The notes under the pieces were generated by a model. It did not search any database. It was not told where the DNA came from and worked only from the letters and a program-made list of their open reading frames with translations. A DNA stretch of 64,000 nucleotides. Source: Radicibacter daui. Lineage in GTDB: Bacteria > Pseudomonadota > Alphaproteobacteria > Radicibacterales > Radicibacteraceae. The translations under genes were made by a program, and so were the position numbers. This document shows, in pieces, positions 11,897 to 39,828 of this stretch; position 1 is the stretch's first letter, and the number at the start of each line of letters is the position of its first letter. The stretch spans positions 2,872,501-2,936,500 of the forward strand of contig CP131056.1 of assembly GCA_030657355.1 (NCBI GenBank), written 5' to 3'.

Positions 11897-13045
11897 ATGC
11901 CCGACAACAGCCTTTCCGCTCCCGCCACCACCCTTGGCGCTCAGGACAACAGCTGCCATGTGCGGGCGGTCAGCGGCCTTGGCGCCAAATCGCCGGCGGC
12001 CTTTCTGGTGGAGTATCGCGGCAAGCGGCTGCTGATGGATCTGGGCGCCGGGCCTGAGCCGGGCGTGCGGCCCGACCTGACCGGGCTCGGCCAGATCGAT
12101 GCCATCTGCCTCAGCCACGCCCATGGCGACCATGTCGGCGCGCTCGATGCCCGCGGCGACCATGGCAACCCGCCCGTCTGGGCCACGGCCGCCACATGGG
12201 GCCAGATCGACACCGCGCTGGTGCCGCAGGAGGCCCGCCGGCTGCTGCCGCTGAAGGGAAGCACGGAGGTGCTGGGCACCCCGGTGATGACCGGGCGCAC
12301 CGGCCACGCACCGGGCGGGGTGTGGCTGCATCTGCCGGGCGCCGGACGTGAAGGGGGCGGTTTTACCTATATGGGTGACTGGACGGTTGAGTCCGACCTC
12401 TTCCCCTTCGACATGCCGCCGCAGGCGGACTTCCTGATCGACGATGCTTCCTACGGCAACCGCGACCAGAGCCTTGCGGACCAGATCGGCGCACTGGCCG
12501 AGGCAGCAAGAGAAGGCGCCGTGCTGTGCGTGCCTGCTGCCGGTCGCGGGCCGGAGATGGCGCTGCGCCTTGCTGCACTGGGCCTCAGGCCCTTGCCCTG
12601 CCCGGTCATCCGCCGGGAGATCGAGGCGCTGGCAACTGACGACAGCGGCATCATCGACGCCGCGCCGCGTGCCGCCATGGCCGCCTTGCTGAAGGATGGC
12701 CAGCTGGCAGGCGGCGCACCGACGCCGCAGGATATCGTGATCACCACCGATGCCAATGCCGAGAGCGGCCTTGCCGCCGACCTGCTGGCCCGGCGGGAAG
12801 AAGGCTTCCGCTTCATCTTTACCGGCTACGTCCCGCCCGGCACACCGGCCGAACGGCTGGTGGCGGCAAAACAGGCGCTCTGGTGCGGCTGGAATGTGCA
12901 TCCGTGCCTTGGCGACATGCTTTGGCTTCAGCGGGAAATAAAACCGCGCTGGGTCATGCCGGCCTTCGTCAAACCCGCTTCCGCCAGCAAACTGGCAGAA
13001 GCGAGCCACGCCACCTTGCTCTGGGAGCCCGGCTTCCGGTTCTGA
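11897..13045 (+). CDS. MBL-fold metallo-hydrolase
   Basis: A 382-residue metallo-beta-lactamase-fold protein with the metal motif SHAHGDHVGAL near residues 71-82, a further histidine in GRTGHAPGG, and the bridging aspartate in YMGDWTVE. A C-terminal segment (residues 250-380, with VITTDANAESG and FIFTGYVPPGTPAERL) resembles the extra region of nuclease-like or phosphodiesterase MBL proteins. It follows the importer after 119 bp and precedes a phosphatase, so I infer it hydrolyses a phosphodiester or related ester brought in by the transporter. The exact reaction is unknown. Confidence 0.8.
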   Translation: MPDNSLSAPATTLGAQDNSCHVRAVSGLGAKSPAAFLVEYRGKRLLMDLGAGPEPGVRPDLTGLGQIDAICLSHAHGDHVGALDARGDHGNPPVWATAATWGQIDTALVPQEARRLLPLKGSTEVLGTPVMTGRTGHAPGGVWLHLPGAGREGGGFTYMGDWTVESDLFPFDMPPQADFLIDDASYGNRDQSLADQIGALAEAAREGAVLCVPAAGRGPEMALRLAALGLRPLPCPVIRREIEALATDDSGIIDAAPRAAMAALLKDGQLAGGAPTPQDIVITTDANAESGLAADLLARREEGFRFIFTGYVPPGTPAERLVAAKQALWCGWNVHPCLGDMLWLQREIKPRWVMPAFVKPASASKLAEASHATLLWEPGFRF

Positions 13046-13100
13046 GCCCCGCCGCGCCTGCCCTGTTTTCCACGTTCTTCAAGAGCCCCTGCCCAAGACC

Positions 13101-13736
13101 ATGAGCCTTTCCGTCCCCGATGCCCGCCTGCCTGCCGATTTCCTTTCCCTTGGTGAAAAGGCCCAGGATGCGCGGCCGATGCTGCTGCCGGTGATCCACG
13201 GGCTCGGCCCGCAGAAACTGGGGCTCTGGCTTGGCAACGCCCCGGCGGCGCTCGATGGCGGCGCCCTGCTGGAGCACGGCATCACCTCCACGCTCAACCT
13301 CGCCATCAACATCGATATTGCGCCGATGAGCCTGCCGGACGGCACCGCCGTGCGCCGCACCCATATCGGCCTGATCGACGGGCCGGGAAATCATCCGGCG
13401 CATCTGATGGCCGCCGTGCTGGCCCTGCACGGCATCCTTCATCAGGCAAGCCCGGGCAAGCCGCATTACCCGCCCCACCGCGCCGGCCATGTGCTGGTGC
13501 ATTGCCGCGGCGGGCGCAGCCGGTCGGTCACGGTGCTGGCGCTTTACCTGACACTCGCCGTGCCCTGCCGCTTCCCCACCTTCGGCACCGCACTCGACCA
13601 TCTGCGGGCCCTGCGCGGACTGGGTGAAGACCAGCCGCTGGCCTCGATGCTGGCGATGGCCGAAGGTCTGCTGGCAGATGGCAGCGTAAGAGGGCTCCTC
13701 GCGGGCAGCCCGACACCGCAGTGCGAGGCGCTATGA
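13101..13736 (+). CDS. Dual-specificity/tyrosine phosphatase-like protein
   Basis: A 211-residue protein with the Cys-X5-Arg catalytic loop VHCRGGRSRS near residues 134-143 and an upstream aspartate in LIDGPGNHP that could be the general acid. The N-terminal WLGNAPAALDGGALLEHGITSTLNL is typical of DSP-fold proteins. It lies 55 bp after the MBL hydrolase. In this context, removal of phosphate from a small imported molecule seems as likely as protein dephosphorylation; that is inference. Confidence 0.78.
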   Translation: MSLSVPDARLPADFLSLGEKAQDARPMLLPVIHGLGPQKLGLWLGNAPAALDGGALLEHGITSTLNLAINIDIAPMSLPDGTAVRRTHIGLIDGPGNHPAHLMAAVLALHGILHQASPGKPHYPPHRAGHVLVHCRGGRSRSVTVLALYLTLAVPCRFPTFGTALDHLRALRGLGEDQPLASMLAMAEGLLADGSVRGLLAGSPTPQCEAL

Positions 13737-13990
13737 CCGTCAAACGCATCATCACCAACATTGCTGCCGGTGATCTTGCTGCCGCCCGGCGCCGTGACAA
13801 CCGTCGTTCCTCCCGTGACAGGCAAAAACGTGCCTGCGACTGGGCGAAACCCCGGTTGTGACGCCGGCGCAGCGCACTTTGGCGGCGCCGTAATTGATCG
13901 AACACAAAGCCGACCAAGCAGTGGCCCCCGCGAAGCGCTCAAGAGCCCACCGAATGCCAACTGGCGCGAGACAGTTTAGAAAACCAGCCT

Positions 13991-16288
13991 CTACTCCACC
14001 GCGGCGAGAATGGTCGGATGGATTGAGAGCGGCTGATTCCTGTTATTTTTTATAACAGAAGAAAGGTACTGACGCTTATACCCACAGTCAAAAATGTACT
14101 TCGATTCGCCATTATTACGAATTCCGATACTCCCATTCCAGATCATAACATCGAGCAATCGAATAATATCTTCGTTAGACTTCATTTTCTTCTGGCAAAA
14201 GTAGACAAATTTATCTGGCGTTAAATCATCTCTCTGCTGCAAAAGCTCAAACAGAAATTCCGCACCCTCTGGCACCAGATCAACAATCTCCCGATCTAGA
14301 TCCTCAAGCACTTGCCAGCCGAGTTCCCTCAAAGCGGCAACGTAGTCATCTTCAGCTATTTTATTTCTGCCAAAGGTAATTGCACGGCGGCGAGCTATCT
14401 CAAAAAGACGAATAAGATATCTTGGCCGCATCATGCTGCCGTCGATGAGGAAGTCTAATACAGGCTTCCCCGACACGATTTGAACCGACGCCCTGCGCCA
14501 AATTTCATCCCAATCGTCGGTAAGATCGGAAACATTTCCGCTCAATCTCTGGACAAAAAGAGCGCGTAATAATTCACGATCTGACCATTCAAGACTAAAG
14601 ACTCCAAGCTTTCCGTAATCTGCCATGCCACGGACGAGAAATTCGTAGACGTCACTACGGACGAAAATTGCCCACCTAAAATCGAGGTGTTTCCTCCGAA
14701 ACTTTCTTGATATCTCCTGCATCGACTCCGTTAACCCAACTACGATGAGAGCGTCATCTTCGTTGAAGCCGCCCGGAGTCCAAAACCTGTCCAAGTTGTC
14801 AAACAGAAATAAAACAAACCCCTTTAACCTCAAATATTCCAAAATGCATTCGCGCAGCTCGCGGACATCCTTCAAATATATTATTTCCAGTACGGTTGAC
14901 GAATTCAGAGGATGCCTCTGATCAGAGTCGAGATGCGCAGCTTCAAATCTGTCAATTATATTCGAGGAAAGGCGCTTTAATCTTTCTGAGAAATCACCCT
15001 TCCCTGTATCAACTCGCGCTTCATATAAACGCTCAAGGGCTCTATACCCTTCGGTCAGCCGCGGATCGTGATATGCACGCCGCTCATCCTTCTCAAGAAT
15101 CTTGTAGGCTATCTCAAGCCAAAGCAAATACTCCCAAAAAGCTGCAATAACCTCTTTGCGGGCACCAAAACCAAGCTGATCAAGAATAAACTCCTTCATC
15201 TTAACCAGCTGATGCCCATCCGGTATAAGATCTATGACTATATTTTGCTTATTGTCATCAACCCGGCAAACGTCCCGGACCCTCAGAAATATTGCGGTTT
15301 TTCCGCTCCCCTTCCTGCCAACAAGAACATTGGCCGTACCATCAAGCGCCCGTTTATAAGCATCCGTTTCCAAAAAAATATCCGATAGAGAAGCAGCTTC
15401 GTTTTCTGCCACCGGATCACCACACGACAGACTTTCGAGAAAGTTTCCTTTCTTCTCGCGAATTTCGCTTAATTCATTTTGGTAGTCCGCAACCCTTATG
15501 CGAAATGCAGCCACCAATGCATCAAGGCCCTCTGGCGAGTCCCATCTATCCGCTTGATCTTCGAGATCAAGTGGAAGTGAAACCTGTTGATGGGCGATCA
15601 AGAGGGCGGGAATTCCATGACCTCGCGCTAGGCCAAAAATAAAGGAAGCCCTTTGGTTATTCCTGTCGGCCTCCGCATCATCTCTCGCGTCCCAAAAGAC
15701 GATGACGCCGTATGAGGACATAACCTGCTCATAAGCCTCGCTTGCATTAAGCCTGCTAATTTCCGACGGATTAAAGTTACGAAACCTGACACGAGCAATC
15801 TTTTTGACACCACTTGTAATACGAAGAGAAGTGTCGGTTGGCTTTGGAGGCTGCATCAAGAATACAGGCTGATCCTTGTTTTTATAAATCTTTGGCCAAT
15901 TCAGCGTAATATCAGCTTTCTTAAGCACCCCAGCCAAGGGCAGCACAAGGTCATAGGCGTCATGACCAAGGGAATCGAGCAATCCAATCGATTTTACATT
16001 CGTCCAATCAAGATGGGACGATCTTATTAAGCGAATTGGGCGCCCAAGACCAATCGCATAACCGATCTCATAAGTTACGTTGTGATTGACAATTGAAATG
16101 TCTCCCACAAAGGCATCCGCCTCATCGATCCAAGCCTCCACAGACCGAGAGATGGCGTGACCGCTTGTGTCCAGCCGTGACCATGGCTTTACCTTCCTCT
16201 GTGCCGTGGATGCGTCGTGGCAGGCCTTCTCAATAATGGATTTGTGATAATCATTTCCAGATGCATAGGCGACGAAAACGGAAGTCAC
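13991..16288 (-). CDS. NDT/TIR-like domains fused to Sll1717-type P-loop NTPase
   Basis: A 765-residue protein in DNA clearly more AT-rich than its neighbours. Residues 2-91 form a Rossmann-like domain (SVFVAYASGND, then ADAFVGDIS and NVTYEIGYAIG) whose Asp63 and Glu74 match the catalytic pattern of nucleoside deoxyribosyltransferases and related NAD-cleaving enzymes. Residues 164-236 look like a second copy (VIVFWDARDD, ASFIFGLARGHG) lacking the glutamate. Walker A GRKGSGKT is at 324-331 and Walker B VLFLFDNLDR at 492-501, with a helical C-terminal region, like Sll1717-family P-loop ATPases. GTG 16288 has an AGAGGG site; GTG 16315 is an alternative. A defence role is inferred from this architecture and its isolated position. 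Confidence 0.72.
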   Translation of the reverse strand: MTSVFVAYASGNDYHKSIIEKACHDASTAQRKVKPWSRLDTSGHAISRSVEAWIDEADAFVGDISIVNHNVTYEIGYAIGLGRPIRLIRSSHLDWTNVKSIGLLDSLGHDAYDLVLPLAGVLKKADITLNWPKIYKNKDQPVFLMQPPKPTDTSLRITSGVKKIARVRFRNFNPSEISRLNASEAYEQVMSSYGVIVFWDARDDAEADRNNQRASFIFGLARGHGIPALLIAHQQVSLPLDLEDQADRWDSPEGLDALVAAFRIRVADYQNELSEIREKKGNFLESLSCGDPVAENEAASLSDIFLETDAYKRALDGTANVLVGRKGSGKTAIFLRVRDVCRVDDNKQNIVIDLIPDGHQLVKMKEFILDQLGFGARKEVIAAFWEYLLWLEIAYKILEKDERRAYHDPRLTEGYRALERLYEARVDTGKGDFSERLKRLSSNIIDRFEAAHLDSDQRHPLNSSTVLEIIYLKDVRELRECILEYLRLKGFVLFLFDNLDRFWTPGGFNEDDALIVVGLTESMQEISRKFRRKHLDFRWAIFVRSDVYEFLVRGMADYGKLGVFSLEWSDRELLRALFVQRLSGNVSDLTDDWDEIWRRASVQIVSGKPVLDFLIDGSMMRPRYLIRLFEIARRRAITFGRNKIAEDDYVAALRELGWQVLEDLDREIVDLVPEGAEFLFELLQQRDDLTPDKFVYFCQKKMKSNEDIIRLLDVMIWNGSIGIRNNGESKYIFDCGYKRQYLSSVIKNNRNQPLSIHPTILAAVE

Positions 16289-16772
16289 GATGCCCTCTTT
16301 TATGCGTGCGTGCACCTCAGTATGGCATACACCGCTATCCGCTCAACATTTACGGACCGGACTTTCGAGTAAACTGCAAACGGCGACCGCTTTGTCCGTA
16401 GTTGATCATCATTAAGATGTAAAATTTACCTGTGACCATGTGAAGGCTGCACCACAGCCGCCCGACAACTACCTTTGGTATACACCGTTACGAGCGGCAG
16501 TGCGGACTTGATCAGCGGCCAAGCGATAGCAGAGATCCACTACCAAGCAACAAGATCGTTACCCATATGGATTAGATATTAGTGTACTTTTCCGGAAATC
16601 TCGAATAAACGCAGATATTAATTACATTTTCTGAAAATTTATTTGCCGGTCATTGTATATAAAAGCATGATAGCTCCATACGAATACGAAAGATGTTCGA
16701 GATTTCTGAAAAGCCTCCCCTAAAGGCGACTCACACCCCGTATTCAGACAACTTGGCAAGCCTCTGGGTAAG
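16289..16772. other. AT-rich intergenic region, no gene seen
   Basis: This 484 bp stretch lies between the NTPase start and the 3' end of metH. It should hold the promoter of the NTPase gene. I saw no tRNA, insertion-sequence end or long direct repeat. The base composition stays low up to about 16,750 and then returns abruptly to normal at metH, consistent with an inserted segment. Confidence 0.5.
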
Positions 16773-19424
<2,652 letters not shown>

Positions 19425-19427
19425 CGC

Positions 19428-20489
19428 TCACACAAGCTCAAAAGGTTCAAGGCCACTAAGACGCAGGCCGCGCGGCCGTGCGGGCACGGTGCGGGCACTT
19501 TCCGACTTCACGCCGTCGGCGATGGCGTGGATATGGTCCGGCGTGGTGCCGCAGCAGCCGCCGACGATGTTGACCAGCCCGTCATGCGCCCACTCATGCA
19601 GGTGATGGCCGGTCTGGTGCGGGGTCTCGTCGTAGCCGCCAAAGGCGTTGGGCAGGCCGGCATTGGGATAAACGCTGATGCGTGTATCGGCAACCCGCGC
19701 CAGCTCGGCCAGGAACGGGCGCATCTGCTCGGCGCCCAGCGCGCAATTGAAGCCGACGGAAAAAGGCTGCACATGCCGCACCGAGTTCCAGAACGCTTCC
19801 GGCGTCTGGCCGGAGAGCGTGCGGCCGGAAAGATCGGTGATGGTGCCGGAGATCATGACCGGCAGCTTGATATCCAGCGCCTCAAACACTTCCTCGATGG
19901 CAAAGAGCGCGGCCTTGGCATTGAGGGTATCGAAGATGGTCTCGACCAGCAGGATATCGGCGCCGCCTTCGATCAGCCCCTTCGCCGCCTCGGCATAGGC
20001 CCCGCGCAGCTCGTCAAAGCTCACATTGCGGTAACCGGGGTCATTCACATCCGGGCTGATGGAAGCGGTGCGGTTGGTGGGGCCAACGGCGCCCGCCACC
20101 CATTTGACGCTGCCCGGATGCGCGGCTTCCCACGCGTCGGCCGCCTCGCGCGCCACGCGGGCGCCCGCCACATTCATCTCATAGGCCACCGACTGCATCT
20201 GGTAGTCGGCCTGCGCGATGGTGGTGGAGGAAAAGGTGTTCGTCTCCAGAATATCCGCGCCGGCAGCCAGATACTGGCCGTGGATTTCGCGGATAATCTC
20301 CGGTTTGGTGATGGAGAGCAGGTCGTTGTTGCCCTTCACATCCACCGGCCAGTTCGCAAAACGCTCGCCGGCATAATCTTCCAGCTCCAGCTTGTAGCGC
20401 TGGATCATGGTGCCCATGGCGCCATCGATCACGAGGATACGGCGGTCGGCTTCCTGATAAAGGCGGGCAATACGTTCTGCACGGGTCAT
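19428..20489 (-). CDS. metH: Methionine synthase, homocysteine-binding module
   Basis: A 353-residue homocysteine S-methyltransferase domain: [12 protein letters not shown] near the N-terminus, and zinc ligands in [12 protein letters not shown] and the C-terminal [11 protein letters not shown]. It corresponds to module 1 of MetH and is encoded three bases before the second part. Standalone BHMT- or MmuM-like activity is conceivable, but the tight pairing argues for a split MetH. It follows metF by 69 bp, which contain a hairpin. Confidence 0.93.
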
Positions 20490-38793: not shown

Positions 38794-39828
38794 TTACTTC
38801 GCGGTCGTACGAATGTAAGTCTTGGTCTCGGGGTCGTAGATCCACTCGAGATAAGCATCGAGCATCACATGGGCGGTGCTGAAGGCGCCTTCGTCATAGT
38901 GATAGACCTCGACCTCTCCGGTCAGCGGGTTCCACTCTCCCATGACGTTGATCTTCACGTCTTTTTCCTGCGACGAACAGTTCAGATAGAACTTTTTGCC
39001 GCGGATCGTGGTCTCAATGCACTCGTACTGCTTGGACTGCTTTTCCGTCAGGATATCGATATCGACGGTGCGGCGTGTCACCGAAATTTGCATCGCCAGC
39101 TGCTGCTTGCCGCGATAGGTCTGCGCCACATGACTGGCCGCCTTGACCTTGTTGAGCACGGTCGATTCATCCATCAGCATCCAGCTGCTCTTGGTGATCG
39201 CCTGATTCCGCTCGAACCGCTCCACCGCTTCGGCGATGGAATTCTTCTTTGACAGGTTGGCGCTTTTCAGCAGGTGGTCTGTCTTGAACTTGCTGGTGAC
39301 CTTGAATTTGAGAGGGTTAGCCTTCACCAGCAACCCAAAGGCCATCGGCGCCGAAATTTTGACTGTCTGGGTGGGGCCGTCACTGGATTTGACCGCCTTC
39401 TTCATCTGCTCAAGCGCTCCTTTGAGCGCATCCTTCACCACCTTGTCGAACCAGTCCGACAGATACTTTTCCTGCTTTTCCTTGAAGTCGTCACAGAAGT
39501 TCTGCCATTGCTCTGCTTCCCAGCTCAAGGTGTCCTTCCTGGACTTCAGATAAGCGGTGTAGTTCTGGTCGGTGACATCGCGCATCTCGCTCAGGATATC
39601 GCGCGCATACTGATCAAAGGTCTGGTCGATCAGGAGCTTGAAGGCGTCGCCGCCGCAGCGGTCATATTCCTGCTTCTTGATATGCTTGACGCCTTCCAGC
39701 ACCAGCACCGCCTTGCCAGGCAGCTTGTAACTGTACTGTTCGTCAAAATCGATGTCTGGGTGCAACCCTCTGGGATGCGATACGCGGTGCTGAAAACGTG
39801 TTTTGTACTCGGTGATAAATTTCACCAT
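38794..39828 (-). CDS. Unknown lysine-rich protein
   Basis: A 344-residue soluble protein I do not recognise. It is rich in Lys, Asp and aromatic residues, with helical stretches (residues 60-145), a Ser/Thr/Lys-rich middle and a C-terminal part ending YLEWIYDPETKTYI. It has no signal peptide or membrane helix. DNA of this gene is less GC-rich than both flanks and it is oriented against the helicase, eight bases from its stop. That suggests insertion between helicase and PdeM. It may be recently acquired; no function is assigned. Confidence 0.7.
   Translation of the reverse strand: MVKFITEYKTRFQHRVSHPRGLHPDIDFDEQYSYKLPGKAVLVLEGVKHIKKQEYDRCGGDAFKLLIDQTFDQYARDILSEMRDVTDQNYTAYLKSRKDTLSWEAEQWQNFCDDFKEKQEKYLSDWFDKVVKDALKGALEQMKKAVKSSDGPTQTVKISAPMAFGLLVKANPLKFKVTSKFKTDHLLKSANLSKKNSIAEAVERFERNQAITKSSWMLMDESTVLNKVKAASHVAQTYRGKQQLAMQISVTRRTVDIDILTEKQSKQYECIETTIRGKKFYLNCSSQEKDVKINVMGEWNPLTGEVEVYHYDEGAFSTAHVMLDAYLEWIYDPETKTYIRTTAK

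Follow-up and report, generated by a model that had tools for sequence, protein, structure and literature searches.

A candidate single-gene defence protein joining an NDT/TIR-superfamily domain to an Sll1717-family NTPase in Radicibacter daui

Introduction

Two published defence systems, retron-Eco1 and DUF4062, deplete NAD+. The former is associated with NAD+ hydrolysis in the title of a cited work and is counted among NAD+-depleting systems in PMC12774641. Retron effectors of an NDT-like type have also been described (PMC12548924). In the case of DUF4062, a TIR/NDT-like domain acting as an NADase is found adjoining NACHT ATPases (PMC13174449). An active-site tyrosine is common to NDT, DNPH1, and some ThsB proteins and is absent in NADase TIRs (PMC11204291). 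Among NTPases of the Sll1717 type, the point of reference is DS-41 of DefensePredictor, which belongs to a set of 42 systems shown to lower plating or plaque size in E. coli (PMC13092281).

The present analysis concerns one gene in a 64,000-nucleotide stretch of contig CP131056.1 of Radicibacter daui (hereafter, the window). A first-pass annotation had proposed this gene as a candidate single-gene defence system built of two parts, an NDT/TIR-like domain and an Sll1717-like NTPase. Both named domains are present; a further domain (residues ~137-285) had been missed. In the open-licence literature, no description was found of this architecture, in which an NDT/TIR domain, an NDT-like domain, and an Sll1717 NTPase follow one another.

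The Gene and Its Locus

The candidate defence gene (13991-16288, minus strand) occurs as a single copy in the genome and encodes 765 aa from a GTG start codon at 16288, in agreement with the earlier gene call. This GTG is preceded by AGAGGG, which resembles a ribosome-binding site, and is favoured over a longer start (GTG 16315) because close homologues (L002, L003, L011, and L013) start at exactly the same residue (MTSVFVAY).

The gene has a GC content of 0.465 and a GC3 of 0.477, compared with a GC3 of 0.78-0.84 in its neighbours, which bears out its description as AT-rich and unlike its surroundings. Together with 484 bp of upstream DNA (GC 0.45) it forms a low-GC, apparently acquired segment (13991-16772), flanked by metH, encoding methionine synthase (16773-19424, minus strand), and by a phosphatase-like gene (13101-13736, plus strand). 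Repeat searches at the ends of the segment returned short or imperfect repeats only, none of which clearly marks an insertion. No further sizeable, non-overlapping ORF lies between 13737 and 16772, a promoter and terminator scan of the locus gave background levels, and an Rfam search of the locus was empty. The surroundings of the gene in the window are housekeeping in character (metH, MTHFR, and transporters) and contain no defence island.

Two other features of the window deserve mention. Methionine synthase is encoded by two neighbouring ORFs 3 bases apart (16773-19424 and 19428-20489, minus strand), the second of which, judged by eye, corresponds to the homocysteine-methyltransferase part. 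A second low-GC patch holds a 344-aa ORF (38794-39828, minus strand, GC 0.536) without a Pfam match.

Domain Architecture

Residues 1-136 (15881-16288, minus strand) constitute domain A, a putative glycohydrolase effector of the NDT/TIR superfamily, as indicated by matches to PF05014, CAP12-PCTIR_TIR, PDLC00733, and DNPH1/Rcl. The window protein itself matches NDT (PF05014) weakly, with an E-value of 6e-4 and 20.3-22.9 bits, under the gathering cut-off of 28.8, and the match recurs in 47 of 48 aligned family members (E up to 1; best 2.3e-7). The Pfam model CAP12-PCTIR_TIR, which represents the TIR domains of CAP12/Pycsar, is matched by 26 of the 48. The PADLOC TIR effector PDLC00733 is matched by 45/48 members (best 1.2e-7), the window protein being without a match at E 0.1. 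When a domain A profile was compared with the PDB, the DNPH1/Rcl N-glycosidases were nearest (E 1.6e-6), with NDT reached at E 0.2-0.6 only.

Across 68 homologues, Glu74, Asn68, and Asn70 are each found in 68/68, Asp63 and Trp36 each in 67/68, and Tyr8, at the end of strand 1, in 62/68. Glu74 (codon 16067-16069, minus strand) is aligned with the glutamate in the YELG motif of DNPH1, in keeping with the YExG pattern of NDT/DNPH1, and is the putative catalytic nucleophile, a role that we take the DNPH1 Glu to play. Classic NDT/DNPH1 enzymes have a second catalytic acid, presumably Rcl Asp69 / NDT Asp72, 24-26 residues before the Glu. Its equivalent here is position 50, which is Val or Ile in 66/68 homologues; the PDB rows of the DNPH1/Rcl alignment include variants at Rcl Asp69. 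Thus, the earlier assignment of domain A to the NDT/TIR superfamily stands, as does its emphasis on Glu74, but Asp63, despite its conservation, does not occupy the second-acid position. On account of the missing acid, domain A lies, as far as its sequence allows a placement, nearer to an NDT/TIR intermediate than to a standard NDT, and the protein ought not to be classed with the NDT enzymes; classic NDT membership is ruled out by this absence together with the sub-threshold PF05014 score. Without the second acid, catalysis by domain A is not guaranteed.

The domain that had been overlooked, domain B, spans residues 134-286 (about 137-285; 15431-15889, minus strand). No relative was found for it in Pfam, where nothing rose above noise, or in the PDB. 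The hhalign comparison of domains A and B gave a probability of 34 and an E-value of 4e-4 over the active-site motif, pairing Asn68 with the conserved Asn211 and Glu74 with Ile217. Other conserved residues of domain B are R170, E176, R179, R213, G219, D241, and D244. The likeliest, though unproven, reading is that domain B is a degenerate NDT-like copy lacking the putative catalytic Glu, and its role may be regulatory or nucleotide-sensing.

Residues 286-765 (13994-15433, minus strand) form domain C, a P-loop NTPase of the Sll1717 family. The HMM search suggested in the first-pass annotation supported this assignment strongly: NCBIfam NF047389 (ATPase_Sll1717) matches with an E-value of 3.3e-80 and scores 270 bits where 75 would suffice, over positions 2-451 of its 454. 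Walker A (GRKGSGKT, residues 324-331; 15296-15319, minus strand) is near-invariant across homologues, and within Walker B (VLFLFDNLDR, residues 492-501; 14786-14815, minus strand) D497 and D500 are invariant. Both motifs, like Asp63 and Glu74, had been placed correctly beforehand. A sequence search found no relative of domain C with a solved structure.

Sll1717 NTPases and the Link to DS-41

The window protein reaches 29.7 bits with the DS41_1_antiphage model (NF053860), over 59 residues only, compared with a cut-off of 370. In another genome (G431), a single 504-aa ORF of the DS-41_1 type, carried identically by loci L128 and L138, exceeds the cut-offs of two models, Sll1717 (112.5 bits vs 75) and DS41_1_antiphage (396 bits vs 370). 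Since DS-41 restricts phage and the G431 ORF passes both models, at least one branch of the Sll1717 NTPases is antiphage. This branch is distant from that of the window protein, as a profile of the window family's NTPase domain barely detects the 504-aa DS-41 ORF (E 0.0015).

Elsewhere, Sll1717 members stand alone or carry other extensions. For example, one group (L126 and L130) has a ParA/CbiA-like N-terminal region. In the F-plasmid Sll1717 protein and in L113, a C-terminal segment contains FDAKN / WECKN, judged by eye to be typical of PD-(D/E)XK nucleases; Pfam did not confirm a nuclease in this segment. The F-plasmid gene (L111:3965-6061; plasmid F NC_002483, 4303-6399) is annotated as hypothetical and encodes an Sll1717-type NTPase with the C-terminal (D/E)xK nuclease-like motif. 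Next to it lie genes for a Tn3-family transposase and a recombinase; a Serratia plasmid (L137) shows the same arrangement. The F-plasmid gene is a candidate for defence cargo of a classic transposon.

Distribution and Genomic Neighbourhood

Relatives of the protein are patchily distributed and often mobile. A contig scan returned 335 stretches encoding a relative, from which 80 loci were kept, and in the class sample a relative was found in 2/385 genomes at E 1e-30. Full-length homologues were traced to eight or nine phyla; the rows of the tree comprise Pseudomonadota, Acidobacteriota, Bacteroidota, Thermodesulfobacteriota, Melainabacteria, Cyanobacteriota, Verrucomicrobiota, Myxococcota, and Spirochaetota, the last on a plasmid. 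The window protein falls into a supported group of eight (100*) with Sphingomonadales and Rhizobiales, plasmid copies included. The homologue from Sphingomonas (L011) shares 70% identity with it. Thirteen plasmid records carry a near-full-length relative, among them Ensifer (65% identity) and Mesorhizobium (67%), and integrases adjoin homologues in several loci. The copy number was one in 22/23 genomes checked. A few copies look broken, with one stop in L038 and split genes in L071 and L087, which may reflect decay or assembly error. The gene in the window is, judging from its sequence, horizontally acquired.

As the first-pass annotation had noted for the window, the gene stands alone: no conserved partner gene was found across the homologue loci, and the neighbour group that recurs most widely, at 5 loci, is recombinase-like. 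That annotation had also suggested looking for defence-island enrichment around homologues. For this comparison, the six nearest suitable ORFs at 23 loci were taken blind to content, giving 138 proteins from crude ORF calls; the controls were 133 proteins from 20 regions of those contigs lying at least about 95 kb away from the match. At E 1e-15, PADLOC returned 14 families in the 138 neighbours and 2 in the 133 controls. The 14 families include NucC, ThsB, a type II methyltransferase, a type IV restriction enzyme, and PD-Lambda-2, and because several of the models were probably hit by one and the same protein (NucC twice, ThsB twice), the contrast at the protein level is smaller than at the family level. 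Compared with the controls, the surroundings of homologues are richer in defence genes. A further 119 proteins, examined as a second set, yielded 117 PADLOC families, including DISARM, type I and IIG restriction-modification, AbiD, and PDC candidates, a figure not relied on here because many models are redundant and 19 of the proteins were added by hand. The homologues thus do not always lie in housekeeping contexts, the arrangement that had been named as speaking against a defence role.

Some individual neighbours were also recorded. A ThsB-type TIR gene and a SLATT_3/SLATT_1 membrane gene lie beside three homologues (L021:12571-15216, L023:12570-15224, and L013:12459-13742), accompanied in L021 by a TPR-S gene. 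They probably form a separate defence module, and their restriction to these three homologues rules them out as a general partner module. In L016, a 670-aa gene without a Pfam match (12553-14565) adjoins the homologue. A gene of the octameric membrane protein family (8xMP; L009:12303-12902) lies 44 bases from a distant Leptolyngbya homologue, and a gene related to it is found near L062.

Proposed Function and Alternative Explanations

On balance, the protein is probably a self-contained, horizontally acquired abortive-infection protein, directed against phages or mobile elements, in which an NTPase would switch on a nucleotide- or NAD+-type glycohydrolase. That it is probably a self-contained phage-defence protein follows from the scatter of its relatives across bacteria, often among anti-virus genes. 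The original proposal of a single-gene defence system is thus upheld in its domains, solitary organisation, horizontal acquisition, and enrichment of defence genes nearby, and is amended with regard to Asp63 and to the overlooked domain B; the effector domain appears closer to an NDT/TIR intermediate than to a classic NDT. In the proposed mechanism, the ATP-binding NTPase would hold the protein inactive until the NTPase and/or domain B senses a sign of infection, which would trigger a conformational or oligomeric change. Domain A, thereby released, would cleave an N-glycosidic bond via Glu74, most likely in NAD+ and otherwise in a (deoxy)nucleotide, and the infected cell would cease to support the phage. 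NAD+ is favoured as the substrate owing to the TIR-type matches and the published NAD+-depleting systems.

The main rival to NAD+ is a deoxynucleotide substrate or a signalling product. According to this explanation, which retains a defence role but is distinctly less likely, domain A is not an NADase; rather, its chemistry would resemble that of DNPH1/NDT or ThsB. It would either cleave (deoxy)nucleotides, so that the dNTP pool is drained, or produce a nucleotide signal to which another effector responds. The nearest solved structures are DNPH1 deoxynucleotide N-hydrolases, and Tyr8 is a possible counterpart of the active-site tyrosine of NDT, DNPH1, and some ThsB proteins. However, the acid corresponding to Rcl Asp69 / NDT Asp72 is absent, and there is no conserved partner gene to receive a signal.

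Departing further from the preferred reading, the protein could be an NTPase of mobile elements that is ORC/CDC6-like and associated with DNA or plasmids; domains A and B would then serve as nucleotide sensors only, and any phage phenotype would be indirect. Weak Pfam ORC-CDC6-like matches within the family, frequent plasmid location, and the many Sll1717 proteins too short for an extra domain are consistent with such a role. The invariance of the catalytic-type Glu and Asn residues of domain A and the identification of one Sll1717 member as DS-41 by a curated model argue against it, and it is considered unlikely. Least probable is that an ATPase has been fused to an ordinary enzyme of metabolism or salvage. 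NDT and DNPH1 act in salvage or nucleotide clean-up, and the neighbourhood in the window is metabolic, but the patchy occurrence and alien composition of the gene disfavour a housekeeping salvage enzyme, as do its plasmid-borne relatives and their variable contexts, which include defence genes; a metabolic operon conserved in most homologues was not seen.

Returning to an abortive-infection protein, a broader and more tentative extension, on the doubtful side of even, can be put forward. The protein may represent a widespread and as yet undescribed family of one-protein immune systems: an Sll1717 NTPase would control tandem NDT/TIR domains, one catalytic and one degenerate, and the degenerate copy would detect a nucleotide that signals infection. 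The Sll1717 NTPases may be general, exchangeable switches for different effectors, such as NDT/TIR and nuclease-like domains. If true, this would add an immune family that is compact, encoded by one gene, broadly distributed, and independent of any partner, and it would tie the poorly understood Sll1717 NTPases, including the validated antiphage DS-41, to glycoside-cleaving effectors.

Comparison with Known Systems

Retron-Eco1 is likened to the window protein by its description as an NAD+-hydrolysing defence system; unlike a retron, the window locus (13737-16772) contains neither a reverse transcriptase ORF nor a retron RNA. In DUF4062 / Swarozyc, a TIR/NDT-like NADase domain is likewise present, in some proteins next to an ATPase (PMC13174449), but the window family has no DUF4062 match and its NTPase belongs to a different family. 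The Pycsar/CBASS TIR effectors share a superfamily with domain A, with PADLOC TIR effector matches in 45/48 members, though not in the window protein at E 0.1, and would probably cleave the same type of bond. They differ in that no conserved cyclase gene adjoins the window family and an NTPase on the same chain replaces the cyclic-nucleotide sensor.

With NDT/DNPH1 (PF05014), matched by 47/48 members, the protein has in common the active-site motif with its Glu; it is set apart by a sub-threshold score, by Val/Ile in place of the second acid, and by fusion to an NTPase. As for DS-41 (NF053860), the DS-41_1-type ORF, at 504 aa, is too short for two NDT-like domains, and the window protein scores far under the cut-off of that model (30 vs 370 bits). 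Among the Sll1717 ATPases (NF047389) as a whole, the NTPase domain of the window protein is a full, well-scoring member.
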